This document shows, piece by piece, positions 7,099-38,590 of a stretch of 61,652 nucleotides of DNA. Below the pieces are notes generated by a model that saw only the letters and a list, made by a program, of their open reading frames with translations, was not told the origin of the DNA and made no database searches. Each line of letters opens with the position of its first letter. The stretch's first letter is position 1. The position numbers and the translations under genes are program-made. The DNA lies in the NCBI GenBank assembly GCA_903853805.1, contig CAINUN010000019.1, positions 1-61,652 on the forward strand, given 5' to 3'. This DNA is from an uncultured Bacteroidota bacterium. GTDB lineage: Bacteria; Bacteroidota; Bacteroidia; Chitinophagales; Chitinophagaceae.

Positions 7099-7464
7099 TT
7101 AAGGATTTTTCTTTGCCTTTCTAACAGGCCTTTTATATTCGGTCTTCTTTTTAAGACCCAAACTTTGCAGTTCATTACTGCTTTTTCCAAATTGTGCAAT
7201 GACTTGGTCTTTAGCACCAAGAATGCCATTGTGCGCATCCCACTCTGCTTTTACAGCATTATCGCGGGCGGCTTTGTAAGCCGCAAATGCTTGTGCTTCT
7301 GCATCTATCATTGCATCTTTGGTTGCAAAAAGCGTAGTGAGTTTCACCACGGTGTAATCTGCATTTGCAGGAGTGTATCCTGTAATTTTTTTCAATGCAG
7401 CATTTGCTGCTACATCTGTTGCTAGCCTTTTTGGAGTAAGGCGTTTAGTTTCATCTTTAGCCAT
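7099..7464 (-). CDS. Small helical protein linked to 21-bp array A
   Basis: A 121-residue cytoplasmic protein without a signal peptide, rich in Ala and Lys, and predicted almost entirely helical. Landmarks are ITGYTPANADYTVVK (27-41), an Ala-rich helix with AAYKAARDNAVKAEWDAHN, and a basic tail (LGLKKKTEYKRPVRKAKKNP). I recall similar conserved hypothetical proteins in Bacteroidota but no assigned function. It resembles the N-terminal helical parts of the proteins at 25139 and 37875: long helix, second helix, then a short GL/GF-type turn and Pro. The gene is monocistronic, with its own promoter (7486-7519) and terminator (7056-7096). Array A starts about 105 bp upstream. The basic tail would suit nucleic-acid binding, but that is inference. 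Confidence 0.8.
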   Translation of the reverse strand: MAKDETKRLTPKRLATDVAANAALKKITGYTPANADYTVVKLTTLFATKDAMIDAEAQAFAAYKAARDNAVKAEWDAHNGILGAKDQVIAQFGKSSNELQSLGLKKKTEYKRPVRKAKKNP

Positions 7465-7485
7465 AATATAAAGGTTTGATTATCC

Positions 7486-7519
7486 TAAAGGTAAAATAAA
7501 CTACTTTGATTTGACCAAA
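7486..7519 (-). promoter_or_regulatory. Promoter of the array A gene
   Basis: Read on the minus strand: TTTG (7519-7516), a 22-bp spacer, then TACCTTTA (7493-7486), close to the Bacteroidota -33/-7 consensus. It lies between the gene start (7464) and array A, so the array is directly upstream of the promoter. Confidence 0.6.
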
Positions 7520-7568
7520 TTTTTCTTAGTTTTTTTTTGAAAAAATAAAGAAATCAGTTCATCCTCTA

Positions 7569-7778
7569 AAAGATTCATTCAATCTTCTTTTAGCATCGTT
7601 CAAAATTCCATTAGAAGCTTGCCTGCTTCCTTTAGAATCTTGCGTGCTTCCTTTAGAATCTCATGAGATTTCTTTAGAAGCTTACGTGCTTCCTTTAGAA
7701 TATTTAGAGATTCTTTTAGAATCATGGCTGCTTCCTTTAGAATCTTTAGAAATTCCTTTAGAATCTCGGCTGATTTTG
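7569..7778. repeat. 21-bp tandem repeat array A
   Basis: About ten units with an exact 21-bp period. TTTAGAA recurs at 7631, 7652, 7673, 7694, 7736 and 7757, and the variant TTTTAGAA lies in phase at 7715. The two units at the 7569 end are degenerate. Around the TTTA core the flanks form inverted arms, for example GATTC-TTTTA-GAATC near 7715. The rest of each unit varies. The array lies between the promoter of the minus-strand gene at 7464 and the DUF4160 gene. Open frames across it are a by-product of the 7-codon period. The last unit overlaps direct repeat R1 (7764-7785). Confidence 0.9.
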
Positions 7779-7785
7779 ATGGAAA
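7764..7785 (+). repeat. Direct repeat R1, left copy
   Basis: A 22-bp sequence (TCTCGGCTGATTTTGATGG plus AAA) repeated exactly at 8390-8411. This copy is the distal end of array A. Similarity continues more weakly for about 20 bp beyond both copies. Confidence 0.8.
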
Positions 7786-7895
7786 CGGTTAAGGGTTTTT
7801 GCTTCTTATGGAAGTTGTTTGTGAGAACATCACCAAGACAGAATTATCATTTTGATTTCTGTAAAAATCATAGTTTTGAATGAAATTAATGCTGA

Positions 7896-8150
7896 ATGCC
7901 AACTATCTTGTTTATATATGGATGGAGATTGTTTTTCTACTCAAATGAAGGGGCAGAACCTATTCATATTCATGCAGAGAAAGGGGATATGGAATGTAAG
8001 TTTTGGCTTTTAGTAGATGATGTGGAAATAAAAGAGGAATTTGCTTACAATATGAATCCAGCAGCTAAACGAGAAATAAAAAAAGTAATTTACCAACACT
8101 TCGATTTAATAGTGGAAGCTTGGAATAACCATTTCAATTCTAACCAATGA
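7896..8150 (+). CDS. DUF4160 domain protein
   Basis: An 84-residue cytoplasmic protein matching the DUF4160 pattern. It opens MPTILFIYGWRLFFYSNE, followed by the PIHIHAEKGD block (about 26-35) with its His and acidic residues, and ends in an amphipathic helix. DUF4160 proteins are usually paired with DUF2442 proteins, as here, with a 4-bp ATGA overlap. The pair has been suggested to behave like a toxin-antitoxin or mobile accessory module, but no mechanism is established. It lies between direct repeats R1 left and R1 right, so it is probably accessory DNA. Confidence 0.88.
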   Translation: MPTILFIYGWRLFFYSNEGAEPIHIHAEKGDMECKFWLLVDDVEIKEEFAYNMNPAAKREIKKVIYQHFDLIVEAWNNHFNSNQ

Positions 8151-8386
8151 TAGCAACACACAAAATAGAAACTTTGACTTTTTCAGAAGGTTGTTTACAT
8201 CTTTATATTGATGGCAAAAACATCTCCTTGCCATTAGAAAAGCTATCGAAAAAACTAAGTTTGGCATCTGATGTTGAGCGGAATTTATATTCCATTTCGC
8301 CTTCAGGCTATGGCATTCATTGGCCATTGATTGATGAAGACCTTTCTGTCAACGCTATCATCAATACAATATCCGCGCAATCGTAG
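8147..8386 (+). CDS. DUF2442 domain protein
   Basis: A 79-residue partner of the DUF4160 protein. The core contains LPLEKLSKKLSLAS and the ISPSGYGIHWPLIDEDLSV block (about 50-68), characteristic of DUF2442, in which the HWPxLDEDL motif is conserved. The start overlaps the DUF4160 stop by 4 bp, so translation is likely coupled. The last eight codons and the stop lie inside a 26-bp duplicate of the 3' end of the nucleoside transporter gene (direct repeat R2), so the natural C-terminus may have been replaced when that repeat formed. Confidence 0.85.
   Translation: MIATHKIETLTFSEGCLHLYIDGKNISLPLEKLSKKLSLASDVERNLYSISPSGYGIHWPLIDEDLSVNAIINTISAQS
8361..8386 (+). repeat. Direct repeat R2, left copy
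   Basis: A 26-bp sequence (begins TCAATACAATATCC, ends CAATCGTAG) matching 9193-9218 with one mismatch. The right copy is the authentic 3' end of the transporter gene. This left copy serves as the end of the DUF2442 gene. Confidence 0.85.
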
Positions 8387-8389
8387 GAT

Positions 8390-8411
8390 TCTCGGCTGAT
8401 TTTGATGGAAA
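8390..8411 (+). repeat. Direct repeat R1, right copy
   Basis: Exact 22-bp copy of 7764-7785, three bases after R2 left. The order R1-R2-R1-R2 suggests an ancestral tandem duplication. From here to 8568 there is no convincing gene; a perfect 12-bp palindrome GCTTGCGCAAGC lies at 8537-8548. Confidence 0.8.
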
Positions 8412-8568
8412 AAGGTTATGAGTTTTTTTCCTTTGTTGTTATGCTCACCAACAAACTACTCCTCTTTATTGCTGTGGTGATAATGCCAATAGCGGTGGAA
8501 AAGCACAAGCACGCTGCGCACAAAGCTAAACTGCATGCTTGCGCAAGCGGGGCAAGCTGGGTGATTAC

Positions 8569-9135
8569 TTATTCTTTAACAGGGGTATATTTGATTATAT
8601 TCCCAGAGCTATCAAATTCAATAATCGGAGGAACCATAATCCCTACTTTGTAATGCTCTATTTTTTTGATGTTGCCATTGAAAAAATAAGTTACATTAAT
8701 GCCATCTAATTTATTATCTCTATACATTCCTATACCTGCGCAATTACCATTTTTAAAATAAACCTTTACAGGTCCATCCTTAATCATTTTTGCCTTGTAA
8801 TCATTCTCTGCAAATACATGATTATCAGTATCGCTTAAAATTGTGACACTAGTTTTTGGTGTACAATAACCCTTTAATAAAACTTGATTAGGATAGTCTT
8901 TATCATACTGATAAAAACTATCCACAGGCATATCATCTTTAAAACATTGCACCATAAAAAGATTGCCATTTTCATAGTACAGTTCTTCTCTGCCATTTTT
9001 TTTACCATTCTCCATTTCGGTAATTGCTTGCAACTTTCTGCTTGGGAAATAAGTTTTAAACTTTTCTCTTTTGCTCTTTTGAAACGCACATCCAATAATT
9101 GCAAAAATAAAAAGCAGAAAAAAAAGATTTTTCAT
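8569..9135 (-). CDS. YwqK/MORN-like repeat lipoprotein
   Basis: A 188-residue lipoprotein with lipobox IIGC (Cys16). It has several copies of the YwqK/MORN-type pattern in which a strand is followed by a Gly-Lys or Gly-Asn turn (ENGKKNGREELYYENGNL, KDGPVKVYFKNGNC, LDGINVTYFFNGNIKK). Databases usually name such proteins toxin-antitoxin YwqK family antitoxin, but their real role is unclear. It is likely anchored to the cell envelope. The gene lies alone between R1 right and R2 right, so it looks like a cassette placed next to the transporter gene. Confidence 0.82.
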   Translation of the reverse strand: MKNLFFLLFIFAIIGCAFQKSKREKFKTYFPSRKLQAITEMENGKKNGREELYYENGNLFMVQCFKDDMPVDSFYQYDKDYPNQVLLKGYCTPKTSVTILSDTDNHVFAENDYKAKMIKDGPVKVYFKNGNCAGIGMYRDNKLDGINVTYFFNGNIKKIEHYKVGIMVPPIIEFDSSGNIIKYTPVKE

Positions 9136-9192
9136 AACAATTCTATTTGATTTTAAAAATTGCTTACAACCTTAAGTTTTTCACCAACACAA

Positions 9193-9218
9193 TCAATACA
9201 ATATCCCCGCAATCGTAG
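9193..9218 (+). repeat. Direct repeat R2, right copy
   Basis: The 3'-terminal 26 bp of the nucleoside transporter gene, including its stop codon. It is duplicated at 8361-8386 with one base difference. Confidence 0.85.
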
Positions 9219-10458
9219 CACTTAAATAAGAAGCCAACGTTCCGCAAAGAAGGGCTTTCATACCGAGTTTGGCAAGGTCGCTGCGGCGTTCGGGTGCAAG
9301 GGCACTAATGCCGCCAATTTGCATGCCCACACTACTAAAATTGGCAAAGCCACAAATAGCTACGGTCACAATCGTTAGTCCTTTAGGCGTAAGAATAGGC
9401 ACTGCCTTCGTGGTCATGCTGCTAAAAGCTACAAATTCGTTGATGGTTATTTTTTGTCCAAGAAGCGTGGCTGCGTTGTTTACATCGCTTATCGGAATGC
9501 CCATTGCCCATGCAAAAGGGTAGAAGATTTTAGAGAAAATAAAGTTGAGCGAGAGTTGCAAATCGTGGTTGAATAAATGTCCAATGTGCAGCAAACTCCA
9601 GTCAATCATCGCAATCAATGCAATGAAACCAATCAACATGGCCACCACATTCATGGCTATTTTAAAACCATCGCCCGCACCATGACTAATGGCATCAATG
9701 AGATTGCTGTAACCGCTTTTCACTTCGAGTTTCACATTGCCCATCGTTTGCGATTCTTCAGTTTCGGGGAAAACAATTTTAGCAATTACCAATGCACCCG
9801 GTGCTGCCATGAGGCTTGCAGCAATTAGTTGCGGAGTAATGTTGAGCCCTGCACGCATACCCATGTTGGCATACACAATCAAGATACCTCCAGCAATACA
9901 AGCAAGACTGCCACTCATAGAAGCGAGGAGTTCGCTTTGTGTCATCGTAGCTAGGTAAGGACGAATCATCACCTGCGCTTCAATTTGACCAACGAATGCA
10001 CTCGCCACATTGCTCAATGCTTCTGCACCACTTACCCTCATCACAAAGTTCATGGCTTTGGCAACCACAGAAACAATGCGTTGCATGATGCCGAGATAAT
10101 AAAAAATAGCAACGAGCACACACACCAAAATGATAGTAGCCGTGATATTGAAAGCAAACACAAACGTACCCGGATTGCGGAAGTCGGTGATTTGTCCGGT
10201 GAAATCGTAAGCACCTATGCCGCCATACACAAAGTTGGCACCTGTCTTAGCAAAGCCTTCGAGTTTTTCCATGCCTCGTCCGAGGAAAGTGAAAAACTGA
10301 TTGACCACAGGCACTTTAAAAACCAAGAAGCCAATAGCCGTTTGAAGGATAATGCCACTAACAACTAAGCGGTAGTTGATTCTTTTTTTATTGTTGGAAA
10401 ACAAGAAGGCAATTCCAAGAATAAGGACAACGCCTAAGAGACCGGTAAATCTTTGCAT
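9193..10458 (-). CDS. NupC/CNT family nucleoside transporter
   Basis: Inner-membrane concentrative nucleoside transporter that takes up nucleosides with H+ or Na+. The 421-residue length and 8-10 hydrophobic segments fit the CNT family. Family landmarks are visible: an N-terminal TM pair (FTGLLGVVLILGIAFLFS), the Nucleos_tra2 gate region with GQIEAQVMIRPYL, the EFVAFSSM segment and the late CGFANFSSVGMQIGG motif near 365-380. No operon partner is evident, as both flanks are lipoprotein or T9SS genes on the same strand with gaps. The last eight codons form one copy of direct repeat R2. Confidence 0.93.
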   Translation of the reverse strand: MQRFTGLLGVVLILGIAFLFSNNKKRINYRLVVSGIILQTAIGFLVFKVPVVNQFFTFLGRGMEKLEGFAKTGANFVYGGIGAYDFTGQITDFRNPGTFVFAFNITATIILVCVLVAIFYYLGIMQRIVSVVAKAMNFVMRVSGAEALSNVASAFVGQIEAQVMIRPYLATMTQSELLASMSGSLACIAGGILIVYANMGMRAGLNITPQLIAASLMAAPGALVIAKIVFPETEESQTMGNVKLEVKSGYSNLIDAISHGAGDGFKIAMNVVAMLIGFIALIAMIDWSLLHIGHLFNHDLQLSLNFIFSKIFYPFAWAMGIPISDVNNAATLLGQKITINEFVAFSSMTTKAVPILTPKGLTIVTVAICGFANFSSVGMQIGGISALAPERRSDLAKLGMKALLCGTLASYLSATIAGILY

Positions 10459-10531
10459 GGCTTAAAAGTAGAAATTTGAAACAAAAAAGGAAGGATTTTT
10501 TAAAAGGAAGCTCAAAATGTTATTGGCTTTC

Positions 10532-10567
10532 AAAAAAATGTTCCGGATATTTTTCAACACCCGGAAC
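10532..10567 (-). terminator. Intrinsic terminator of the SBBP T9SS gene
   Basis: Minus-strand hairpin with arms GTTCCGG/CCGGAAC (10567-10561 and 10546-10540) and a 14-nt loop. A T-run follows (A-run at 10532-10538 on the plus strand). It lies just past the stop at 10599. Confidence 0.75.
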
Positions 10568-10598
10568 GTAATTTAAAGAAACAAGCATGCTCGCCCTA

Positions 10599-12281
10599 TT
10601 ACTCAATAACAAACTTATGAGTAGCAACAGTTTCGCCATTTTGCTGAAGGCGAATGAAATAAACATTCTTAGAAAGGTTTTCAGTATTCAAATTGAATGA
10701 GTTGCCGTTTAAATTGTCCATTGAATAAACAACTTCACCCAAGGTATTATACACTAATAACGAACCATTTTTAACATTGAAATTGGTTTGTAAAACCAGA
10801 TTTGTGGTTACAGGATTTGGATAAAGAATGGAATTAGAAACATTCACTTCATCAATACCCAAAGTAGCATCTAATTTAGCAATAAACATATCGGCAACAC
10901 CAGCGTTGGCAAGAGTGCTATTGCCAAAAACGACACTACTATTTTGAAAATTCCCAGTGATGTATGCGTTACCCAAAGCATCTGTTGATATGCTTTGAGT
11001 AGTACCTTTAGTAGCGTATGATTTCACCCAGTATTCAATGCCATTACTATTCAATTTCAAAATAAACTCATTGCCATCAACATTGGTTTTAGTCAGATTT
11101 ATTGAACCAAAAGTAATTGTGTTGCTATGAATGACTCCGTTGTAATAACAATTACCACTCACATCAACTGCAATACAGTTGCTACCATCTAAACCTAAGT
11201 CACCACCATAGTTTTTCACCCATTGAACAGCACCAGCACTATTGAGTTTAGCAACAAATTGATTGGTATTATTTGCAACAGGACGAGTAATCAAGATAGC
11301 ATCAAAAAGAATATTATCACTACGATAATCACCTGTTATCCAACTATTCCCTTGAGCATCTGTAACTAACCCTTTAAACAACTCGTCTGCATTACCACCC
11401 ATTCCTTTCAGCCACTTAATGTTACCAAAAGAATCATACTTAGCAACATACATATCGTTAGTGCCGTCGGTGGTATCGTTTGAAACAGTAAGTGTGTCAG
11501 CATAGATAATTTCGCTGGAAAAGCCACCTGCAACATAGAAATTGCTATTTTGATCAATGCCTATATTATTTACAAAATCATCGCCAAATCCGCCAATACT
11601 TTTACACCAAACGTTATTCCCTGAAGCATCAAATTTTGCAATAAACCCTTCACTAGGACCAGCTGAGGTGCTTGTTACGAAATTTCCATCAAAATGAAGA
11701 GTATCATCACTGAAACTACCAACGATTGTACAACCTCCGTTAGGCAAAGCAGCAACATCTTTTCCAATATCGGTATTCCCATTTCCCCCAAATCCCTTAG
11801 CCCAAAGTACATTACCAAGATTATCCAATTTTAAGAGAAAAACATTACCATTAGAATTTGAAGAATGATTAACCATTGTTCCGTTAAAATCGATGGTTGT
11901 ACTTGTAAAATAGCCTGTTACATAACAGTTACCCACAGCATCAAATGCAATACTGCTACCAACATCATAACCATTTCCGCCAAAAGACTTAGCCCATAGC
12001 ACAGTGCCATTTGCATCATACTTAGTCACAAAGATATCAGGTGTACCCGTAGAATAATTAGTGAGATTCATAGGACCAAAAGTGATTGAAGAGCTACTAT
12101 ACCCGCCAGTTACATAACTGTTTCCACTAACATCTACTTTTACAGAGCTACCAAAGTCAAATTGATTCCCCCCAGCTTTTTGGGACCAATTCCAATTTGG
12201 TGCCTGAGCATTCAATTTGAAAGCAAGAAAAAAGATGCTAGTTAAAATGAAAAGTCCAGAGAGAAGTAACGTTTTTTTCAT
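10599..12281 (-). CDS. SBBP beta-propeller protein, T9SS type A cargo
   Basis: Predicted 560-residue secreted surface protein. The frame extends upstream to 12422, but the ATG at 12281 gives a standard signal peptide (MKKTLLLSGLFILTS, ending near LNAQA), so I start there. The body is a series of SBBP-type repeats (variants of VTGYFTSTTIDFNG and FVAKLNSAGAVQWVKNYGG), expected to form a beta-propeller. The last about 75 residues are a T9SS type A sorting domain (LYPNPVTTNLVLQ, GEVVYSMDN, KNVYFIRLQQNGE, THKFVIE), which directs export and surface attachment. It is divergent from the TonB receptor. A related cargo gene occurs at 38739. Confidence 0.92.
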   Translation of the reverse strand: MKKTLLLSGLFILTSIFFLAFKLNAQAPNWNWSQKAGGNQFDFGSSVKVDVSGNSYVTGGYSSSSITFGPMNLTNYSTGTPDIFVTKYDANGTVLWAKSFGGNGYDVGSSIAFDAVGNCYVTGYFTSTTIDFNGTMVNHSSNSNGNVFLLKLDNLGNVLWAKGFGGNGNTDIGKDVAALPNGGCTIVGSFSDDTLHFDGNFVTSTSAGPSEGFIAKFDASGNNVWCKSIGGFGDDFVNNIGIDQNSNFYVAGGFSSEIIYADTLTVSNDTTDGTNDMYVAKYDSFGNIKWLKGMGGNADELFKGLVTDAQGNSWITGDYRSDNILFDAILITRPVANNTNQFVAKLNSAGAVQWVKNYGGDLGLDGSNCIAVDVSGNCYYNGVIHSNTITFGSINLTKTNVDGNEFILKLNSNGIEYWVKSYATKGTTQSISTDALGNAYITGNFQNSSVVFGNSTLANAGVADMFIAKLDATLGIDEVNVSNSILYPNPVTTNLVLQTNFNVKNGSLLVYNTLGEVVYSMDNLNGNSFNLNTENLSKNVYFIRLQQNGETVATHKFVIE

Positions 12282-12430
12282 TTTCAAAAATACCTGATGA
12301 CTGTGCAGGCAAACACTTTTTATATGAGTAATACATGAAACTCCGCAAAATTCACCAATTCCAAATCCACAATCAATGACTTTGGTTATGTTATTTAGAT
12401 AAAGTGTTAAATATATTTTCACACTTTAGT

Positions 12431-12462
12431 TTTGGGCTAAGAACATTCAACTTTTATCTTTG
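12431..12462 (+). promoter_or_regulatory. Bacteroidota promoter of the TonB receptor gene
   Basis: TTTG (12431-12434), a 20-bp spacer and TATCTTTG (12455-12462): a perfect match to the Bacteroidota -33/-7 consensus, 44 bp before the start codon. Confidence 0.82.
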
Positions 12463-12506
12463 TCGGAATTGATTTCATACCTTCAAAAAAAATCCCAAGC
12501 AGCTTT

Positions 12507-14846: not shown

Positions 14847-14854
14847 ACACAATC

Positions 14855-19559: not shown

Positions 19560-19582
19560 ACAATTATTACGCTGCCTGATTT

Positions 19583-19590: not shown

Positions 19591-19627
19591 ATTAATTATC
19601 TTACAGCGCGAACTAAGGGACATCATC

Positions 19628-24763: not shown

Positions 24764-24814
24764 TACCCCCCAAATATACACCCCTTTACATCCATTTTTC
24801 CTCTTTTTACCATC

Positions 24815-25039
24815 AATGCCGCATTTATACCCCCAAATACAGCATATGCCTCAACCAATGCCGCATCGATACACATAAATGCCGCATTTGCCTCGAACAA
24901 TGGCGCATGGAGAACTATAAATGCCGCATTTGCCCTTATCAATTTCGCATGGATGCCTATCAATGCCGCATTTGTCCTCACCAATACCACATTGAAGCTT
25001 TTCAATGGCGCATTTATGATTACCAATGTCGCATTGTAG
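24815..25039. repeat. 21-bp tandem repeat array B
   Basis: Eleven units with an exact 21-bp period, starting at 24815 and every 21 bp to 25025. The best-conserved part is AATGCCGCATTTG, whose centre AATGC-C-GCATT is a palindrome with a single central base. The rest of each unit varies, mainly pyrimidine-rich CCNTNA-like. Long open frames across it on both strands reflect the 7-codon period and are not genes. The array ends about 40 bp before the promoter of the gene at 25139. Confidence 0.92.
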
Positions 25040-25076
25040 GTTTTTCTTACCAGAAAAATATTTTTGAATGGGGTTG

Positions 25077-25107
25077 TTGTATATTTAAATACTGTTTTTT
25101 AACTTTG
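25077..25107 (+). promoter_or_regulatory. Promoter of the array B gene
   Basis: TTG (25077-25079), a 20-bp spacer and TAACTTTG (25100-25107) match the Bacteroidota consensus. It is located between array B and the start codon at 25139. Confidence 0.65.
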
Positions 25108-25138: not shown

Positions 25139-25816
25139 ATGAAAATGCTCAAAATTAAACCAACGTTGGATTTTCTTCATTTTAAAACTTCCGACAAAAT
25201 TGCGAAGGGAAAAAACATCATCAATGGCGTTACAGCACAACTTGCGAAGTTGCCTAACCTGCCACATACTGTTGCGCAATTGACAGGATTTAACTCCGAC
25301 CTTGACGCTAAAAACCAAGCGGCGGCTAGTGGCGACCGTGTGGCTATTGCCCAAAAAATTGCATCCGAAAAAACATGGAACACTAATTTTAGAGACACCG
25401 CCAATTATGTAAACTATGTGGCCAATGGCGATAAAATATTAATAGAAGCTTGCGGCTTTGATGCTACAAGTGGCGAAGCCGCAGACCCAATTCCTGCTGC
25501 ACTTGTTACTAATTTTGAGGCAATCCCCGTGCTTCGTCAGTCAGGCGTTGTTGAGCTTTCATGCGATGGACAAGCCAAGCCCCACAGCAACTTTTTGTTT
25601 GCGTTAGCTCCCGCAAATGCTACGGTTACTCAAGATGGAAATACACTTGTGCTCACCACAGCTACGGGTGAAACTTTTTACGTCGTTCCAGATACGCATC
25701 ATCATGTGTTGATAGAAGGTTTGACACCGAGCGTTGTAATGAATGCATATGTAGCAGCGTTTAACACAGTGGGTACGGGTCCGGTGTCGGATGCTGTTCA
25801 GGTGAAACCACAGTAA
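25139..25816 (+). CDS. Helical plus FN3-like protein linked to array B
   Basis: A 225-residue cytoplasmic protein without a signal peptide. The N-terminal about 115 residues look helical (KIAKGKNIINGVTAQLAKL, then LDAKNQAAASGDRVAIAQKI and NTNFRDTANYVNYVANG), followed by the turn ACGFDATSGEAADPIP. The C-terminal about 90 residues look like a fibronectin type III domain, ending with HVLIEGLTPSVVMNAYVAAF and TGPVSDAV. I recall similar conserved hypothetical proteins in Bacteroidota and other phyla without known function. The gene is monocistronic with its own promoter and terminator. It shares fold order with the protein at 37875 and, for the helical part, with that at 7099. Confidence 0.82.
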   Translation: MKMLKIKPTLDFLHFKTSDKIAKGKNIINGVTAQLAKLPNLPHTVAQLTGFNSDLDAKNQAAASGDRVAIAQKIASEKTWNTNFRDTANYVNYVANGDKILIEACGFDATSGEAADPIPAALVTNFEAIPVLRQSGVVELSCDGQAKPHSNFLFALAPANATVTQDGNTLVLTTATGETFYVVPDTHHHVLIEGLTPSVVMNAYVAAFNTVGTGPVSDAVQVKPQ

Positions 25817-25851
25817 AGTTTTAATAAACACAAAGACATCAAAGGATATAC

Positions 25852-25887
25852 AAAGACCACAATGCTTCATCAGTTTGTGGTCTTTTC
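25852..25887 (+). terminator. Intrinsic terminator of the array B gene
   Basis: An 11-bp inverted repeat (AAAGACCACAA and complement) with a 12-nt loop, followed by TTTTC. It lies 36 bp past the stop codon. Beyond it, to 26023, is the low-complexity phrase ctttgtgtcttagcatctc, a type of degenerate intergenic sequence often seen in Bacteroidota. Confidence 0.85.
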
Positions 25888-27964: not shown

Positions 27965-27997
27965 AAGTAGGTCGTGAGTCAAAAGCTTTATAGTGAC

Positions 27998-28081: not shown

Positions 28082-28106
28082 TGGCAAGTAGGGAATGCTA
28101 TTTTTA
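28075..28106 (+). promoter_or_regulatory. Promoter of the liaF-lytS operon
   Basis: TTTG (28075-28078), a 20-bp spacer and TATTTTTA (28099-28106) give a good -33/-7 arrangement, 20 bp before the start codon at 28127. Confidence 0.6.
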
Positions 28107-28126
28107 CATCATAAAATAATGACCTT

Positions 28127-28870: not shown

Positions 28871-28882
28871 ATTGCTGCAACC

Positions 28883-30210: not shown

Positions 30211-30213
30211 CAC

Positions 30214-30951: not shown

Positions 30952-31045
30952 CACAAAGATTTGCTTGTGCCTGAAGGTTTTTTTTTACCTCAATTATTTT
31001 TTTTGCTTTCAAACTTCTCAACTTACTTTTACTTTGTTGCCTGCA

Positions 31046-31783: not shown

Positions 31784-32544
31784 GGAATCATTTTTAAAAA
31801 CCGTTGTAAACCTTTTCTTTTTTCTTCATCAAGAAGGTAATGAATGTTGTAGGTGAAATACGTTTTTAAATCATAAAAAGGATAAGCAATAGCGTCGACA
31901 ATTTCGTCAAGATGCGCTAATCCAACTGCATTAGCTTCATTAAATTGTTGTAAGAAAGCTTCGTGCAAATCTTTATTAGTAACCCAAGCCGCAAATACAA
32001 ATGGAAGTCCTGTAAAATCTTTCCAAGCTCTTGAAAGGTCATACACAAATTCGAAACTATAAAGTTGTTCCAAAGCTCTATCGCCAATAATTACTGCTGC
32101 AGTAGTGCCTTTGATTTCATAAATAAAGTTGTCACTAGCTTGCTTGAAAATCACCTTCTTTCCCCAGTGTTTTTCAAGAAGAATTTGTGCCAAGATCACA
32201 GAAGTTCTCGACTGATAATCGAGTAAAACTTCTTCTACTTCTTCAATGGGCACTGCACTGAAAATGGCAACTGAAGCTACTTCGCCATCAGCGGCGATTC
32301 CATAATCACCTACAATTCTTGCTCCTTCAATTTCTCTTATGGCAGCCACGGGTAATAGTGCCATGTCTATTTCTCCAATCTTTAGTTTATGAGCCAACTG
32401 TGAAGGAAATTCTAAACTCAGCTCCATTTTCTTTATCATGTCAGAACTCTTTAACCCATACAATAATGGTTTAGTATTCAAATAACTTACAGCACCAACT
32501 TTTATTTTGCCTACCAAGGTTTTACTTTTGGCCAAATGTAACAC
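31780..32544 (-). CDS. mqnA: Chorismate dehydratase MqnA
   Basis: First enzyme of the futalosine pathway: it dehydrates chorismate to 3-enolpyruvylbenzoate on the way to menaquinone. The 254-residue length and motifs fit: VGAVSYLNTKPLLYGL at the start, EIDMALLPVAAI, and a YDLSRAWKDFTGLPFVFAAW segment near 185-205. The start is uncertain. Position 32544 is GTG, and a TTG at 32517 would begin right before the conserved KIKVGAVSYLN. The divergent rnhA gene begins only 11 bp away from the upstream choice. No other mqn gene is in the window. Confidence 0.93.
   Translation of the reverse strand: MLHLAKSKTLVGKIKVGAVSYLNTKPLLYGLKSSDMIKKMELSLEFPSQLAHKLKIGEIDMALLPVAAIREIEGARIVGDYGIAADGEVASVAIFSAVPIEEVEEVLLDYQSRTSVILAQILLEKHWGKKVIFKQASDNFIYEIKGTTAAVIIGDRALEQLYSFEFVYDLSRAWKDFTGLPFVFAAWVTNKDLHEAFLQQFNEANAVGLAHLDEIVDAIAYPFYDLKTYFTYNIHYLLDEEKRKGLQRFLKMIP
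32523..32530 (+). promoter_or_regulatory. -7 element of rnhA
   Basis: TACTTTTG is a perfect TAnnTTTG element 25 bp before the rnhA ATG. It falls inside mqnA if the GTG start is used, but is intergenic if mqnA starts at 32517, which favours the shorter mqnA. Confidence 0.5.
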
Positions 32545-32555
32545 AAGCTTTTTTG

Positions 32556-33011
32556 ATGTCGAATCAATTAATCATATACACAGATGGCTCCTCGAGGGGA
32601 AATCCTGGTCCGGGCGGATATGGAGTCATACTTCAATGGGGAACCGCTTACAAAGAATTTGCTCAAGGCTATAGGCTCACAACTAACAATCGCATGGAAC
32701 TCATGGCAGTGATTGTGGCTTTGCAGGCACTCAAGAAAAACAATTTAACAATAAAGATTTACACCGACTCACAGTATGTAGTCAACGCTGTTGAAAAAGG
32801 ATGGTTGAATAATTGGTTACGAACAAGTTTTAAAGGAAAGAAAAATGCAGATTTATGGAGTCAGTATGCACAACTTGCTAAACAACATCAAGTGAATTTT
32901 ACTTGGGTAAAAGGGCATGCCGATAACCTGCACAACAATCGTTGTGACACCTTAGCAACTGAAGCTGCTTTAAGTGGAAATTGGATTGAAGATGTGGGTT
33001 ATGAAAACTGA
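32556..33011 (+). CDS. rnhA: Ribonuclease HI
   Basis: Cytoplasmic nuclease that cuts RNA in RNA-DNA hybrids (R-loops, primers). The 151-residue length is typical. The catalytic acids Asp10 (IIYTDGSSRGNPGPGG), Glu48 (NNRMELMAV), Asp71 (YTDSQYV) and Asp131 (NRCDTLA) are all present, with His121 in VKGHAD. I use the ATG at 32556 rather than the TTG just before it. Its 3' end is one base from the convergent gene at 33013. Confidence 0.96.
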   Translation: MSNQLIIYTDGSSRGNPGPGGYGVILQWGTAYKEFAQGYRLTTNNRMELMAVIVALQALKKNNLTIKIYTDSQYVVNAVEKGWLNNWLRTSFKGKKNADLWSQYAQLAKQHQVNFTWVKGHADNLHNNRCDTLATEAALSGNWIEDVGYEN

Positions 33012-33012
33012 A

Positions 33013-33621
33013 TTATTCAGCAACCTGCTCAGTTGTTTCAATCTTAAACGTCTTTTGTCTTAATCTTCCTATCAAAACTTTGATAGCAAAACCAAAATAT
33101 GGGCGTTGAGAATTGAGATCAGCAAAATAGGAAAGAGAATAACCTGTTTTGGTAGTGCACTTTCTGATGTATTCTATTTCTAGAGGAATTGAAGGAGCGA
33201 AAAAACTTTTTTCTTGATAATCGCCACCTACTTCTACGGTAGGGTTAACAATATCGCCTCTTTTATGACCACTTGTAAATCCTAATCCACCGGAAATGTG
33301 TGTTTGCCATTTTTGTCCTTTAATCACCTTTCCAATCATCAAGCCTAGACTTGAAAAATGTTCTTTAGGATTTGGTCCTATATAATCGAACTCTTTACTT
33401 GAAATAAAACGAAGCTTGAATGCAATCGAGTTTTGTTGAACATTGAAACCTAACATTATACCTGTGCCTGAACTTGGTTCACTATTACCTCCTGAAAAAT
33501 AGATGCCATAGCCTACATCTAACCAACAACTATCCTGTTTAAGGTTTATTGATTGACCGTTAGAAGCAATGCTACAAAATATGCTTGCAAGAATTAGAAT
33601 AAAGGATTGTTTCATGTTCAT
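33013..33621 (-). CDS. Exported barrel-like protein of unknown function
   Basis: A 202-residue protein with a clear signal peptide (MNMKQSFILILASIFCS, ending SNGQ). Alternating strands follow (CWLDVGYGIYFSGGN, GTGIMLGFNVQQNSIAFKLRF, HISGGLGFTSG), suggesting a small outer-membrane beta-barrel. The last about 25 residues are basic and charged rather than a beta-signal. I recognise no named family. Monocistronic, with its start 131 bp from the divergent DUF5916 gene. Confidence 0.7.
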   Translation of the reverse strand: MNMKQSFILILASIFCSIASNGQSINLKQDSCWLDVGYGIYFSGGNSEPSSGTGIMLGFNVQQNSIAFKLRFISSKEFDYIGPNPKEHFSSLGLMIGKVIKGQKWQTHISGGLGFTSGHKRGDIVNPTVEVGGDYQEKSFFAPSIPLEIEYIRKCTTKTGYSLSYFADLNSQRPYFGFAIKVLIGRLRQKTFKIETTEQVAE

Positions 33622-33752
33622 TTTCTGTTGTTTTTCAAAAATAAAACTCTTGATCTATTCGGCAAAGTATTTAGCTAATGAAATAGAAGATTGTTAAAGT
33701 TACTTTTCAAAGTAGCAGAATTCAACTTACTGCCTTTATTTTTATTCTTCCA

Positions 33753-36173
33753 ATGAACACACGACTCGCCCTTTTATTATTATGCCTAATTTTTACTACT
33801 AAATCAATGGCAGATGAAGATACTAAACTTCATGCGCTGCGCATTCAACAAGCACCTAAACTCGATGGGAAACCGGATGATGATTGCTGGAAAAAAGCTA
33901 AATCAATTGAACTTCAATATCAATTTGAGCCAAAGCCTGGTGACAAACCTACTGAACGCACAGAAGTAAAAATAGTTTATGACAACACTGCTGTTTATCT
34001 TTTAGCTCTTTGTTACGATAAGCACCTCGATAGTATTCAACATATTTTAACTAGTAGAGGAACTGTATGGGGTAACACGGAATGTGTTTATATCTTTCTA
34101 GATACTTATCATGATGGACAAAATGCTTTTGGGTTTGGGGTATCAATTGATAATGTTCAAGATGATTTTAAAGCAACAGATGGTGGAAGAAATATTGATG
34201 GTAGTTGGGATGCTGTTTGGGAAAGCAAAACAGGTTTAATTGAAAATGGTTGGGTTGCCGAAATCAAAATCCCCTACTCTGCTATTCGTTTCCCAAAGAA
34301 AGATATTCAAGATTGGGTTTGTGATTTTACTAGAGAAATTCTAAGGAAGAAAGAACTCATAGGTTGGTGTACTACACCACCAACAACTCCTGCTTTCGTT
34401 CCTTTTTTGCGCATAATTGATGGTGTAGAAAAAATAGTTCCTCCTCTTCGGCTTTCGCTTTCTCCTTATGCTTCGGGTTATTATCTCACGCAAGGAAATG
34501 CTACGAGCCAATCTTTTCATGGAGGAGCCGACATAAAATATGGCATCAACGAAAGCTTTACACTCGACATGACGTTGATTCCCGATTTTGGTCAGGTTGT
34601 GTCCGACCAAAAAGTGAAGAACCTCACGCCTTATGAAGTGCAGTATCAGGAACGTCGTCCGTTTTTTTTGGAAGGCTCGGAGTTGTTTAGCAAAAACGAC
34701 CTTTTCTATTCAAGAAGAATTGGTGATTTGTCGGATTTCAATTCTTATCGGCATAATGACTCAGGCTATGTTGCCAACAACCCTCCTGAACAAACACAAT
34801 TGCTCAACGCTTTTAAAATAAGTGGAAAGACAAAAGGTAACCTTGCTATTGGTTTGTTCAATGCCGTGACCGATAACCTTCGTGTTGATGCTACTAATAC
34901 TCAAAACAACGTCAAAGAAATTCTTTATGAACCACTCACCAACTTCAACATTTTGGTACTTGACCAAACATTGAAAAACAATTCCCACTTAGGCTTCATC
35001 AATACTAATGTTACACGCACAGCAAAAGGCAATGATGCCAATGTAACAGGTCTTGATTTAAAACTATTGAACAAGGCAAATACTTATCAATTTTCGCTAC
35101 AAGAAAACAACAGCAACATTTTTGTAAAGAACGGAGGCGATATCAAAAGCGCAGAAGTTGTGTCGGGAAATAGAATTAATACCGGCTTCGCAAAAATCAC
35201 AGGAATGTGGCAATGGGGTTATGGTGCCAATGTGGTGAGCAATACCTACAACACCAACGACATGGGTTATCTTGCCAAGAACAATTTTATCCACCACAAT
35301 GCCTACTTGCGGCAGTTTATCACCAAGCCTTTTTGGCATTTCTTGAATATGAATAGTGGTTTGTTCTTAGATTATGAAACTCAATACGAGGGTAACAAAT
35401 TTGCTTATGTTCAAGTTGGGGCAAGAAACAAAGTGGATTGGAAGAATTACATGACTATGGTAACTTATTTCTGGGCAAACCCCACTGTTCAAAAAGATTA
35501 TTACGAACCCCGTTCAAGTGGCTGGCATTTCAATATTCCTCGTCAATACCAAACAGGAATTTATTTCTCTCCAGACTATCGAAAAACACTAGCTATTGAT
35601 TGTGGCTTGAACTATAAATGGCTCGACGAGAAGAATCGTTATGTGCTCGATTTCAATTTTGCACCAAGACTAAAACTGAGCAATAAATTTCTGTTGGTTT
35701 ACAATTACTACAATGCCTATAGCAGTAATAACTATGGCTATGTTGGCAATGATGGGAGTAATATTTATTTTGGAAGAAGAGACGTAAAAGAAATCAGCAA
35801 TTCGTTTTATCTGAGTTATGTCTTTACCAACAAAATGTCTTTATCGCTCAATGCAAGACACTATTGGAGTGGCGGCAGATATGACCAATACTACACCCTT
35901 CAAAATGACGGGGATTTGCAAGCGACTAACCAAAACCTAAGTGCCGACTTTGACTACAATGCTTGGACAATGGATGCGGTGTTCTCCATGCAGTTTGCTC
36001 CCGGTAGTTATCTTACACTTGCTTGGAAAAACCTTGCCGACTATGATGGTGTGCTGCCCAAATTTGCCTATGCCGATAATTGGAACACTACCTTCAACCA
36101 ACAACTTGCCAATTCTTTTTCCATCAAAATGCTTTATTACCTCGATGTAAATAATTGGCGAAGGAAAGCATAA
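33753..36173 (+). CDS. CBM9-like and DUF5916 outer-membrane protein
   Basis: An 806-residue exported protein with a signal peptide (ends SMADE). The first about 210 residues form a carbohydrate-binding family 9-like domain (APKLDGKPDDDCWKKA, TAVYLLALCYD, GWVAEIKIPYSAIRFP). The rest is the DUF5916 beta-barrel-like region (LDMTLIPDFGQVVSDQKVKN, ERRPFFLEGSELF) with a typical terminal strand region. DUF5916 proteins are frequent in Bacteroidota and thought to sit in the outer membrane; the ligand is unknown. Monocistronic, and its end is 2 bp from the convergent dusB. Confidence 0.9.
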   Translation: MNTRLALLLLCLIFTTKSMADEDTKLHALRIQQAPKLDGKPDDDCWKKAKSIELQYQFEPKPGDKPTERTEVKIVYDNTAVYLLALCYDKHLDSIQHILTSRGTVWGNTECVYIFLDTYHDGQNAFGFGVSIDNVQDDFKATDGGRNIDGSWDAVWESKTGLIENGWVAEIKIPYSAIRFPKKDIQDWVCDFTREILRKKELIGWCTTPPTTPAFVPFLRIIDGVEKIVPPLRLSLSPYASGYYLTQGNATSQSFHGGADIKYGINESFTLDMTLIPDFGQVVSDQKVKNLTPYEVQYQERRPFFLEGSELFSKNDLFYSRRIGDLSDFNSYRHNDSGYVANNPPEQTQLLNAFKISGKTKGNLAIGLFNAVTDNLRVDATNTQNNVKEILYEPLTNFNILVLDQTLKNNSHLGFINTNVTRTAKGNDANVTGLDLKLLNKANTYQFSLQENNSNIFVKNGGDIKSAEVVSGNRINTGFAKITGMWQWGYGANVVSNTYNTNDMGYLAKNNFIHHNAYLRQFITKPFWHFLNMNSGLFLDYETQYEGNKFAYVQVGARNKVDWKNYMTMVTYFWANPTVQKDYYEPRSSGWHFNIPRQYQTGIYFSPDYRKTLAIDCGLNYKWLDEKNRYVLDFNFAPRLKLSNKFLLVYNYYNAYSSNNYGYVGNDGSNIYFGRRDVKEISNSFYLSYVFTNKMSLSLNARHYWSGGRYDQYYTLQNDGDLQATNQNLSADFDYNAWTMDAVFSMQFAPGSYLTLAWKNLADYDGVLPKFAYADNWNTTFNQQLANSFSIKMLYYLDVNNWRRKA

Positions 36174-36175
36174 TC

Positions 36176-37159
36176 TTATTCTTCCATTTTTCTTGCAAGA
36201 AGGTCTTCAAAAACTGCTTCGATGCTTTCGGTGCTATCGCAAGTGACAAGCCTGTTGCGAAACTCTTTGATGTGTGATAAGCCTTTCAAGTAATTGCTGT
36301 AATGACGCCGCATTTCAAGAATGCCTACTACATTTCCCTTCCATTTCACGGAGCCATAAAGATGTTTTTTGCAAGCTTCAATGCGCTCTTCAAGCGTGGG
36401 TGGTGGCAGTAATGCTCCTGTTTCGAAAAAGTGTTTTATTTCTCTAAAAATCCAAGGGTAACCAATGGCAGCCCTGCCAATCATGATGCCGTCAACGCCG
36501 TATCTGTTTTTATATTCCAATGCTTTTTGCGGACTGTCCACATCGCCATTGCCGAAAATAGGGATTTGAATGCGTGGGTTGTTTTTCACTTTTGCTATCA
36601 ATGTCCAATCGGCTTCGCCTTTGTATAATTGTGCACGAGTGCGCCCATGAATAGTGAGTGCTTTGATGCCTACATCTTGTAGTCGCTCGGCCACTTCTTC
36701 AATGTTTTTGGTGTTGTCGTCCCAACCAAGTCGGGTTTTTACGGTTACGGGTAATGAGGTGTTTTTCACTACCGATGCGGTGAGCCTTACCATTAAATCT
36801 ATATCCTTCAACACGCCGGCACCGGCACCTTTACACACTACTTTTTTTACGGGACAGCCAAAGTTAATATCTAACAGGTCGGGGTTAGTAGCGTCTATGA
36901 TGCGAGCCGACAAGCCCATAGCTTCTTCGTCTCCACCAAATATTTGAATGCCAATGGGGCGTTCATAGTCGAAGATGTCGAGCTTTTGACGGCTTTTAAC
37001 GGCATCTCGAATCAATCCTTCTGAAGATATAAACTCTGTGTACATGAGGTCGGCGCCATGTTCCTTGCACACGGCCCGAAAAGGAGGGTCGCTCACATCT
37101 TCCATAGGGGCAAGCAATAGTGGGAAATTGCCAAGCTCAATTGTATCTATTTTCACCAT
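36176..37159 (-). CDS. dusB: tRNA-dihydrouridine synthase DusB
   Basis: FMN-dependent enzyme that reduces uridine to dihydrouridine in the tRNA D-loop. The protein from the ATG at 37159 is 327 residues, the normal DusB length. Landmarks are LLLAPMEDVSDPPFR (13-27), catalytic Cys109 in NFGCPVKKVVCKGAGAG, VKTRLGWDD, TIHGRTRAQLYKG and IPIFGNGDVDSPQKAL. The frame is open for 94 more codons upstream through a 14-bp repeat and part of array C, but that extension has no Dus homology and is rejected. The gene is likely transcribed from the repeat-rich region at 37160-37418. Confidence 0.95.
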   Translation of the reverse strand: MVKIDTIELGNFPLLLAPMEDVSDPPFRAVCKEHGADLMYTEFISSEGLIRDAVKSRQKLDIFDYERPIGIQIFGGDEEAMGLSARIIDATNPDLLDINFGCPVKKVVCKGAGAGVLKDIDLMVRLTASVVKNTSLPVTVKTRLGWDDNTKNIEEVAERLQDVGIKALTIHGRTRAQLYKGEADWTLIAKVKNNPRIQIPIFGNGDVDSPQKALEYKNRYGVDGIMIGRAAIGYPWIFREIKHFFETGALLPPPTLEERIEACKKHLYGSVKWKGNVVGILEMRRHYSNYLKGLSHIKEFRNRLVTCDSTESIEAVFEDLLARKMEE

Positions 37160-37203
37160 GAACGCGCAAAGATAAGTTTTCAGTTGGCTGATAATGGTTA
37201 GTA

Positions 37204-37245
37204 GTTGTTGGTTGATAGTTGTTGGTTGATAGTTGTTGGTTAATA
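37204..37245. repeat. 14-bp tandem repeat
   Basis: Three consecutive 14-bp units (GTTGTTGGTTGATA, same, GTTGTTGGTTAATA) with partial units on both sides, just upstream of dusB. Sequence of the same flavour occurs at 40446-40489. From 37246 to 37418 I see no gene. Confidence 0.75.
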
Positions 37246-37418
37246 GTTGTTTGTATATGGAATGAAGTAAGCAACCTAACATTTTAGGGGAAAAATCCTG
37301 CAGCAAATGGGGTGAAATCCCTTTTTTTTCAACCAAATCTTCGTCCAAACTTTGCAGCGTAAACCGTTTGAATACTTCCCATTCAGGCATGAGCAGCAAA
37401 GGAATACATAGGGCAATT

Positions 37419-37817
37419 AGCAACAAGCTTGGGGCTACCACCTACAAACAAGAGGCTTGTGCCCAAAAGATTCCAGTTAAAGCCCAAACTATTCGGGCTA
37501 CAGCCCAAAATGCTCAGGTTACAGCCCATAATACTTCGGCTAAAGCCCACAACCAAGGGGCTAAAGCCCAAAACTTTTGGGTTGCAGCCCACAAGCGAGG
37601 GGCTAAAGCCCAAAACCTTCCGGTCATAGCCCACAATGCTCGGGCTAAAGCCCACAACCAAGGGGCTGAAGCCCAAATGTCTCCGGTTATAGCCCACAAT
37701 CTTCGGGCTTCAGCCCACCCACCGTCGGGCATCGCCCAAATGATTTGGGATTGAGCCCAAACCGTTTGGGCGGCAGCCCACGACCTTCTTGGTTGTGAAA
37801 AAACACTACGGGCAGCA
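37419..37817. repeat. 21-bp tandem repeat array C
   Basis: About nineteen units with an exact 21-bp period. GCCCA starts 16 consecutive units from 37461 to 37776 at exactly 21-bp spacing, except that a few have GCCCA followed by C or A. Each unit pairs GCCC with a GGGC or GGTT about 13 bp later, so it contains inverted half-sites; one unit (from 37755) is the near-perfect palindrome GCCCAAACCGTTTGGGC. Edge units (37419-37460 and 37797-37817) are degenerate. The array ends 58 bp before the gene at 37875. It is clearly GC-richer than its surroundings. Confidence 0.95.
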
Positions 37818-37874
37818 ACCCAACGTGTTCATTATCAATAAATTATCATTAAAAATTAAAAATCAATCTTTTAT

Positions 37875-38546
37875 ATGCCACACAATGGTCCTTTTCCTAG
37901 CAAAGAAGCCGATCGTAATAGCTATTACAATGCAGCGGCTCCTTATATTTTAGTACCTGCCAACACCACTCGTTTTGGTGTTTCGGCAACTAATAAAAAC
38001 AATTTAACTACGGGACTTGCCTCTTGGAACACAGCTTTTGGACTGACGCAAAACCCTGATACCTGCACCAAAACGGCTATTGAAAACAAAAATGTAGCCG
38101 ATAAAAACATGCAAACGGTGATGCGTGCCATTTTTAACGACATACCCGAAAGTGTGTTGACCAATCAAGACCGCACCACGCTCAATTTGCCTGTTACCGA
38201 CAAGCATAGTACACCGGCACCTGTGCCTAGCACAAGGCCAAATGTGATGATTAATGCTGCCAATCGTTTGGAGCATGGCTTGAGTGTGAAGGACGAAAGC
38301 ACACCCAATAGCAGTGCCAAACCCGATGGCGTGCGTGGCTGTCAAATTTGGATGAAAGTGGGCGGCGAAGCCCCTGCCGATGTAAAGGAAATGAGGTATG
38401 TAGCCACTATTACCAAGTCGCCTTTTATCAATCATTTTGATGGAGCAGATGCAGGCAAAGTGATTTACTATTGGGCAAGATGGGAAAACACCCGCAGCGA
38501 AACCGGACCATGGAGTACGATGGTTGCAGCAACGGTTGTTGCTTAA
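37875..38546 (+). CDS. Helical plus FN3-like protein linked to array C
   Basis: A 223-residue cytoplasmic protein without a signal peptide. The N-terminal about 100 residues look helical (LASWNTAFGLTQNPDTCTK, AIENKNVADKNMQTVMRAIF, VLTNQDRTTLNLPVTDKH). A Pro-rich link STPAPVPSTRP leads to a C-terminal beta region with KPDGVRGCQIWMKVGGEAP, an FDGADAGKVIYYWARWEN strand pair and TGPWSTMVAATV, which resembles an FN3 domain. I recall closely similar conserved hypothetical proteins in several phyla, all uncharacterised. The gene is monocistronic with a terminator at 38553. No consensus promoter is visible between array and gene. Confidence 0.85.
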   Translation: MPHNGPFPSKEADRNSYYNAAAPYILVPANTTRFGVSATNKNNLTTGLASWNTAFGLTQNPDTCTKTAIENKNVADKNMQTVMRAIFNDIPESVLTNQDRTTLNLPVTDKHSTPAPVPSTRPNVMINAANRLEHGLSVKDESTPNSSAKPDGVRGCQIWMKVGGEAPADVKEMRYVATITKSPFINHFDGADAGKVIYYWARWENTRSETGPWSTMVAATVVA

Positions 38547-38552
38547 CCCCCC

Positions 38553-38590
38553 AAAGCCGCAGCAGCAAACAAGCCACTGCGGCTTTTTTT
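38553..38590 (+). terminator. Intrinsic terminator of the array C gene
   Basis: A 10-bp inverted repeat (AAAGCCGCAG/CTGCGGCTTT) with a 14-nt loop, followed by a T-run. It starts 7 bp after the stop codon. Confidence 0.9.

Follow-up and report, generated by a model that had tools for sequence, protein, structure and literature searches.

Iterons of plasmid origins are repeats spaced about two helical turns apart that lie beside the gene of the protein that binds them. A second described arrangement is the ParR-parC centromere of plasmids with type II partition, in which the repeats of pSK41 are 20 bp long and recognition between ParR families is cognate-only (PMC9426499). In type III toxin-antitoxin loci (ToxIN), too, a small gene adjoins an array of tandem repeats, and closely related proteins have conserved repeats (PMC5086642). 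Here we describe three loci that resemble these systems, found in 61,652 nt of an uncultured Bacteroidota bacterium of the Chitinophagaceae (contig CAINUN010000019.1, assembly GCA_903853805.1); we refer to this whole stretch as the window.

As in ParR-parC, a small protein is encoded beside a repeat array, to which it would bind. Unlike in ParR-parC, there is no actin-like (ParM) or ParA NTPase among the window neighbors scanned, the folds predicted for one member each of families F1 and F3 are helical bundles (with a fibronectin type III domain, fn3, in F1) rather than the ribbon-helix-helix of ParR, and array modules occur at many loci per chromosome with the side of the array set by the family. 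Iterons differ in that no Rep protein family was matched here and that the modules occupy many chromosomal loci. In type III systems the repeats measure 34-36 nt and sit in the RNA, the toxin is an endoribonuclease, and a terminator separates the array from the gene, whereas here we find periods of 20-22 or 41-44 bp, no match to a toxin family, and no hairpin covariation. The first-pass annotation of this DNA knew of no described system of such design, and a literature search, mainly of open-access journals and without preprints, likewise gave no description of such arrays or of the function of DUF6261, another array-linked family; the one paper found to name DUF6261 concerns another subject. 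The features of the window are as follows.

Probable terminator of gene A, about 7056-7098, minus strand: long stem with an A/T run, read from the sequence
Gene A, 7099-7464, minus strand: family F4, 121 aa, with a basic tail at the C-terminus; its array lies upstream
Array A, 7576..7785 (extended limits), no strand: 21-bp tandem array, palindromic core TTCCTTTAGAA
Array B, 24809..25039 (extended limits), no strand: 21/42-bp tandem array, palindromic core AATGCCGCATT
Bacteroidota-type -7 box TAACTTTG, 25100-25107, plus strand: between array B and gene B
Gene B, 25139-25816, plus strand: family F1, 225 aa, helical N-terminal domain and C-terminal fibronectin type III domain
Probable terminator of gene B, about 25855-25885, plus strand: read from the sequence
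Array C, 37413..37790 (extended limits), no strand: 21-bp tandem array, palindromic core GGGCTaaAGCCCA
Gene C, 37875-38546, plus strand: family F2, 223 aa, profile-related to F1
Terminator of gene C, 38553-38590, plus strand: flagged by a simple scan, stem 38571-38585

The three arrays that the annotation had reported with a 21-bp period were recovered by Tandem Repeats Finder (7605-7766, 24811-25044, and 37461-37718; periods of 21, 42, or 63 bp), and no other place in the window scores as high at 21 bp (five-unit match scores 0.76, 0.69, and 0.68 for A, B, and C). At periods of 19, 20, 22, 23, 24, 30, and 33 bp the window-wide best score was 0.40-0.45; high scores occur elsewhere in the window at 14 bp (0.74), 15 bp (0.61), and 17 bp (0.54). 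The cores had been read as palindromic yet unrelated, which we confirmed: consensus palindromy of A, B, and C beats column-shuffled controls (z 4.1, 4.1, and 3.7; 0 of 300 shuffles each), and the cores are mutually unrelated in sequence. Array units are partly conserved throughout, rather than identical repeats with unique spacers as in CRISPR, and no cas family scored above chance among the proteins scanned (we take two weak CARF-model matches, E 0.005, as chance).

All three arrays lie upstream of their own genes, which stand alone by their coordinates, as expected from the monocistronic reading. Behind the genes, where the annotation had placed terminators, terminator stems can be read at all three loci; the simple scan flags gene C only, because the T-run of gene A is itself paired within the stem and the loop of gene B exceeds the allowed length. 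Of the promoters claimed at A and B, the one at B has a Bacteroidota-type -7 box; this box has the consensus TAnnTTTG, of which A matches, by eye, only five of the six fixed bases, and C has no such box. A family scan of five neighboring window genes gave DUF6048, MORN, TPR/PMT, Por_Secre_tail, and one protein with no match. The gene adjoining C is dusB-like (named by eye). Protein B alone scored 13.4 bits against fn3 (PF00041), under the cut-off of 25, and a single-sequence scan of the genome contigs with protein B found no relatives. The window proteins did not match the DUF6261 profile (PF19775) and fall outside that family, to which a protein elsewhere in the same genome belongs (L056:4572-5300; 101.5 bits, cut-off 27).

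Homologues of the three genes form small-protein families present in many Bacteroidota. Because fn3 is part of the profile used to search genomes for F1, some of the weak matches may represent nothing but that domain. We found that seven families (F1-F5, DUF6261, and F7) carry an array of 20-22 or 41-44 bp period on a family-specific side, counting proteins less than 90% identical, with a score threshold of 0.52 and 600 bp on each side. Arrays were upstream at 33/47 F1 loci (downstream 1/46), 23/25 F2 loci (1/25), 4/4 F4 loci (0/4), 5/11 DUF6261 loci (0/11), and 10 of the 18 testable F7 loci (none downstream), and were downstream at 55/60 F3 loci (upstream 1/61; best 80 of 304 relatives, on which all F3 statistics rest) and 9/13 F5 loci (upstream 1/13). 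Random genes had an array upstream in 3/240 and downstream in 1/240 cases in family-bearing genomes, and in 3/174 and 3/174 cases in family-free genomes; against the 240, enrichment is significant throughout (Fisher p 3e-6 to 4e-53). Every family but F3 counts its own discovery locus, and the F7 numbers come from 20 loci read among part of the matches listed, with redundancy left in. We dropped F1 rows that were fn3-only segments or fragments (L029, L030, L032, L035-L037, L040, L043, L047, L054, L055), cut at a contig start (L049, L078), or repeats of the same gene (L003, L004); F2 rows that were duplicates (L146, L173) or broken or fragmentary (L159, L160); and one F5 row for which the wrong frame had been chosen (L291). 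An enrichment of arrays beside homologues in other genomes, the check proposed with the annotation, was thus obtained strongly (for F2, 23/25 against 3/240 random genes).

The pairing is not constant. No above-threshold array was found at 14/47 F1, 6/11 DUF6261, and 8/18 testable F7 loci. Conversely, 16 of 26 arrays in 754 kb of the same genome have no F1-F4 gene within 700 bp (a gene of F5, F6, F7, or DUF6261 is near five of these, and the other 11 have no such neighbor), in a census of five stretches chosen for holding F1 genes and hence biased in its ratios. Nor is an upstream array the general layout, since those of F3 and F5 lie downstream.

Periods of 20-22 or 41-44 bp account for 139 of 140 above-threshold family-side calls when 15-60 bp is scanned (F3 being the best 80 of 304 relatives), a count that includes as 21 bp one F1 locus, L079, that is truly a 7-bp repeat; DUF6261 arrays have a period of 41-42 bp. 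A coding explanation (21 bp being seven codons) was rejected because periods of 20, 22, 41, 43, and 44 bp occur too. Palindromy proved to be a property of the family: at p<0.05 it was found in 26/42 F1, 13/25 F2, 2/4 F4, 7/9 F5, and 7/8 DUF6261 arrays, compared to 6/74 for F3 (best 80 of 304 relatives) and 0/10 for F7. It is thus frequent (52-88%) in F1, F2, F5, and DUF6261 and, in F3 and F7, no commoner than chance predicts; among the F1 and F2 arrays, about 40-50% fall below significance, and in 21-bp arrays elsewhere in the same genome palindromy is not constant. In F3, core similarity is 0.34 where the proteins are 40% identical and climbs to 0.89 where they are 90% identical, a trend seen on the same strand alone (null 0.29-0.36; best 80 of 304 relatives). 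Part of the unit conservation could be an effect of concerted evolution within arrays.

The proteins of F1-F4, taken alone, are basic (median pI 8.5-9.6). The F1 profile matches solved fn3 domains (best E 6e-38), 12 of 21 F1 members match PF00041 at E<=0.01, and one F1 member is predicted to fold as a helical bundle with fn3, the domain through which its Foldseek matches come. The predicted fold of one F3 member is a helical bundle of two four-helix modules, in keeping with the homology of the two F3 halves (E 4.6e-11, with E of at least 0.12 in five shuffled controls). This F3 model had no PDB match below E 0.09, and no known DNA-binding fold was recognized in the F1 and F3 models. The putative rule that asymmetric arrays go with doubled proteins is drawn from F3 only, because F7 proteins have no detectable duplication though their arrays are asymmetric. 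By eye, the helical core of F7 is about twice the length of a single module, which may hint at doubling.

On balance we consider it somewhat more probable than not that each locus is a self-contained gene-array pair whose small protein binds its own array in a centromere-like or chromosome-organizing role. Each comprises a small-protein gene and about 5-20 copies of a DNA site on the family-specific side, spaced by two helix turns, or four in DUF6261. The factor bound would most likely be the linked protein: one homodimer per palindromic unit in F1, F2, F5, and probably F4, and a single two-module chain on each asymmetric unit in F3. Proteins so bound would all sit on one face of the DNA, could touch, and may build a compact nucleoprotein structure. 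The array would then function in the manner of the ParR-parC centromeres of plasmids, but with neither a partner NTPase nor a recognized DNA-binding fold, as a centromere-like or chromosome-organizing site that possibly also regulates the gene. Of the three options that the annotation had offered, a helically phased binding array is the best supported, because almost every period is 20-22 or 41-44 bp and the units lack hairpin covariation; the promoter-side role and universal palindromy were not borne out, since an array that lies downstream in F3 and F5 is not simply a promoter-side element.

The gene-array pairing appears to be a type of genetic module that has not been described. More tentatively, and at somewhat less than even odds, we postulate that Bacteroidota hold a large undescribed class of self-recognizing gene-array modules, in which several protein families have each evolved private two- or four-turn codes, palindromic for homodimers and asymmetric for internally doubled proteins, many of them orthogonal on one chromosome and serving as address tags, mini-centromeres, or competing selfish elements. 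If so, several unnamed protein families would gain a first clue to what they do, and nature would supply orthogonal pairs for protein-DNA recognition, with each protein's target written beside its gene so that the recognition code could be read by comparison. It would also raise the question of why some Bacteroidota chromosomes bear many centromere-like arrays, and it may account for some of the assembly breaks in such genomes.

An RNA version, in which transcription of the array within a 5' or 3' untranslated region yields a repeat RNA that the protein binds, in the style of type III toxin-antitoxin systems, draws on the layout of an array with a small gene but seems to us unlikely. At 7/24 F2 loci (1.8 expected) the array is preceded by a promoter-like box, so some arrays may be transcribed, but F1 has no such excess (3/35 against 2.3 expected). 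F3 arrays start a median of 42 nt past the stop codon and are followed by a terminator in 12/69 cases (1.2 expected), yet in 16/69 a terminator precedes the array (1.0 expected; all from the best 80 of 304 relatives). Between array and gene in F1 and F2 a terminator occurs at 4/52 loci (1.4 expected). Against RNA binding, the units show no hairpin covariation: complementary pairs within units number 1554 (1559 expected) and z is 1.3 and 1.6 between neighboring units, and with pairing at expectation we rejected RNA hairpin arrays as the main reading. The periods match helical turns, many cores are DNA-type palindromes, an Rfam search of the window gave no match, and scans with Pfam, NCBIfam, and PADLOC matched no endoribonuclease toxin or other toxin family. 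A general nucleoid protein or intrinsic DNA curvature could instead read the phased arrays while the linked protein acts otherwise, and the two-turn phasing common to families with different cores fits this; however, a general reader needs a shared motif, and most cores within one genome are unrelated (among 35 arrays, 8 of 595 pairs exceed the 99.9% null), leaving a motif read by one nucleoid protein unsupported, and symmetry tracks the protein family. We regard this account as very unlikely.

That the arrays are neutral or selfish satellites, expanding by slippage or recombination and hitchhiking beside genes, is quite unlikely in our estimation. Arrays do occur without a family gene and several sit at contig ends, but the family-specific side and enrichment, the tracking of protein family by symmetry and of protein identity by core similarity, and the confinement of periods to helical turns argue against this account. 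Array C also has a diverged partial duplicate elsewhere (G000:C16, about 85571-85906), where no such gene is present. In a 233-bp gapless BLAST match, 5 of 27 differences fall in core columns (11.7 expected, P 0.006), or 5 of 21 without one unit with clustered changes (9.1 expected, P 0.053); including units outside the collinear part, 6 of 54 substitutions are in the core (21.5 ± 3.2 expected). The weakness of the collinear-part test is a point for the satellite account, and these counts only suggest selection on the core of C after duplication. Finally, it is highly improbable that the arrays are recombination or insertion sites moving the gene as a cassette. The distribution is patchy, neither array nor family gene lies upstream of the dusB-like gene in 12 readable relatives (14 looked at), and a tyrosine-recombinase-like gene (by eye) adjoins locus L066. 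However, no recombinase was found among the nearby window genes scanned, one F3 query had no match in plasmid or phage records, and no clean empty site was found at the dusB-like gene, because the neighborhood is rearranged.

In a scan of F3 for protein residues that track the array core, the top column adjoined the disordered linker. An F3 gene followed downstream by a 21-bp array is present on one viral contig.

The three 21-bp tandem arrays described by the first-pass annotation are all present, and they are the three best 21-bp periodicities in the window.

7099-7464, minus strand: gene A, family F4
7576-7785: array A
24809-25039: array B
25139-25816, plus strand: gene B, family F1
37413-37790: array C
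37875-38546, plus strand: gene C, family F2

The cores were said to be palindromic and unrelated to one another; consensus units of all three arrays do exceed column-shuffled controls in palindromy, and there is no sequence relation between the cores TTCCTTTAGAA, AATGCCGCATT and GGGCTaaAGCCCA. The genes beside the arrays are ordinary open frames. The proposed terminators held in part: one is readable 3' of each gene, but a simple scan flags that of gene C alone. Beside array A, at 7896-8386, are two small adjoining open frames that we take to resemble a DUF4160 and DUF2442 pair.

Pairing between arrays and small-protein families was scored over 600 bp on each side of the gene, with a five-unit score of at least 0.52, periods of 15-60 bp, and proteins less than 90% identical, redundant loci being kept in F7. 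We found the pairing itself, a family-specific side, a helical-turn period and a symmetry that goes with the family.

Distribution, linked arrays and palindromic arrays (p < 0.05) by family. Each pairing count except that of F3 takes in the family's own discovery locus, and palindromy counts take in some arrays below the pairing threshold.
Family; genomes; arrays upstream; arrays downstream; palindromic
F1; 56/247 of the class; 33/47; 1/46; 26/42
F2; 10/149; 23/25; 1/25; 13/25
F3; 16/149; 1/61; 55/60; 6/74
F4; 2/149; 4/4; 0/4; 2/4
F5; 10/119; 1/13; 9/13; 7/9
F6; 3/149 (two matches weak); –; 3/3 (21-bp arrays); –
F7; 18/149; 10/18 testable loci; none; 0/10
DUF6261; 4/149; 5/11; 0/11; 7/8
Random genes, family-bearing genomes; –; 3/240; 1/240; –
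Random genes, family-free genomes; –; 3/174; 3/174; –

Pairing is incomplete in F1 (33/47), F7 (10/18) and DUF6261 (5/11). Of the 140 period calls made for arrays lying on the family side, 139 fall at 20-22 or 41-44 bp, one of the 139 (locus L079) being really a 7-bp repeat. Random stretches of family-bearing genomes hold two-turn arrays at three places. Two of them adjoin an F3 and an F2 gene, each on the side expected of its family, and no gene of either family stands beside the third.

F1 joins a helical N-terminal domain to an fn3 domain. Its profile relation to F2 spans most of the F2 length (E 2.8e-8), and F1 is present in 10/10 F2-bearing genomes against a base rate of 56/247. A relation also links F4 with the C-terminal half of F3 (E 4e-6). 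Profile comparison of F1 with F3 and with F4 shows none. For F3, a 241-aa family designated 'ETGH', the species-level genome collection yields 304 relatives; among the best 80, whose loci were fetched, are records from Flavobacterium, Pedobacter, Draconibacterium, Breznakibacter and Ignavibacteria. A downstream 21-bp array (score 0.61) also accompanies an F3 gene on an IMG/VR contig (L289), possibly a prophage or host fragment.

The linked protein is best read, we infer, as the reader of its own array: it would bind there, one dimer or pseudo-dimer would sit on each unit, all on one helix face, and together they would build a nucleoprotein structure, for which we likewise infer a cellular role. 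The nearest known design is ParR on parC (PMC9426499), although the NTPase of that system is missing among the window neighbours scanned, and its ribbon-helix-helix fold from the modelled F1 and F3 members. The array periods correspond to two or four helical turns, and an origin in codons was rejected because periods of 20, 22, 41, 43 and 44 bp also occur. The array lies 15 to 536 bp from the start codon, a variability that argues against a classical activator site. Within units of palindromic arrays, 1554 complementary pairs were counted against 1559 expected, so that the unit halves vary independently, and the same test on neighbour-unit geometry gave z 1.3 and 1.6; these results fit a dimer on two half-sites, not hairpins. 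A type III toxin-antitoxin layout (PMC5086642) does not agree with the arrays in repeat length or with the proteins in toxin family, nor does the hairpin test of array units lend it support.

Palindromy follows the family. F3, whose arrays are asymmetric, is internally duplicated (E 4.6e-11; at least 0.12 in five shuffled controls), and its structure model shows two four-helix modules with a disordered linker between, an arrangement consistent with a pseudo-dimer bound at an asymmetric site. No internal duplication was detected in F1, F2, F5, F7 or DUF6261, and F7, with asymmetric arrays and no detectable duplication, is unexplained by the pseudo-dimer idea. Core similarity in F3 was 0.34, 0.36, 0.44, 0.63 and 0.89 at protein identities of 40, 50, 60, 70 and 90%, a trend that holds on the same strand only (shuffled null 0.29-0.36). 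Because common descent adds to this trend, its minimum reading is co-inheritance and its maximum is co-evolution. A scan of F3 for residues tracking the array core gave no clear specificity residues; its top column lies next to the disordered linker.

A second array with the array C core, an orphan partial duplicate, lies elsewhere in the genome (contig C16, ~85571-85906; L059:5571-5906), flanked by two unrelated genes named by eye as TonB-type and GAF-type. BLAST aligned 233 bases gap-free with 27 differences. The nine most conserved columns hold 5 of these against an expectation of 11.7 (P 0.006); once a single unit whose changes cluster is left out, they hold 5/21 against 9.1 (P 0.053). At most, this suggests that core and spacing are under selection.

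A TAnnTTTG box occurs within 150 bp before the start in 29/78 F3 genes (6.8 expected), with 26/32 boxes at 35-59 bp. It is not clearly enriched before F1, F2 and F4 genes (7/79; 4.0 expected). Upstream of the arrays themselves it is enriched for F2 (7/24; 1.8 expected) and not for F1 (3/35; 2.3 expected). Given the F2 enrichment, some arrays may be transcribed.

Four further gene B relatives were found in the same genome (3.52 Mb in 106 contigs, of which the window is one), all four with 21-bp arrays upstream. The closest (86% identical) has a related core, in which a symmetric change has turned AATGCCGCATT into AGTGCCGCACT; the cores of the other three are unrelated. In the 754 kb surveyed, picked partly for family genes, 21 bp is the commonest tandem period (27 rows), followed by 12 bp (18) and 42 bp (8). 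Within this sample, 10/13 F1-F4 genes have an array within 700 bp; 10/26 arrays have such a gene that near and 16/26 do not, 5 of the 16 lying near an F5, F6, F7 or DUF6261 gene. The array-gene pairing first proposed stands at the window loci, but many arrays in this genome are without a recognised partner gene. Four 21-bp arrays without a recognised F1-F7 neighbour (L057:12537-12897, L010:14957-15368, L072:2099-2269 and L016:16436-16675) may mark further families or relics; one of them abuts a Cro/C1-type HTH gene (HTH_26).

A 43-bp repeat (~four helical turns) stands in four copies at 49468-49643 of the window and carries the inverted motif TTTCTA..TAGAAA. The gene downstream of it encodes 529 aa with a secretion-tail domain, and beside the repeat no small helical gene was recognised. 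At the left end (5-48) a 21-bp unit, AGTTCTTGAAAAAGAGAAACT, occurs twice; read on the opposite strand, it nearly matches the array unit beside an F5 gene at the start of contig C10 (L015:10-194). The assembly may have split two adjoining contigs at this array. Heptamer or 14-bp tandem repeats of the GTTGATAGTT type, at 37192-37261 and 40444-40492, form a second intergenic repeat class met several times in this genome, of the same general sort as the 7-bp VNTR loci described in Flavobacterium psychrophilum (PMC4501049).
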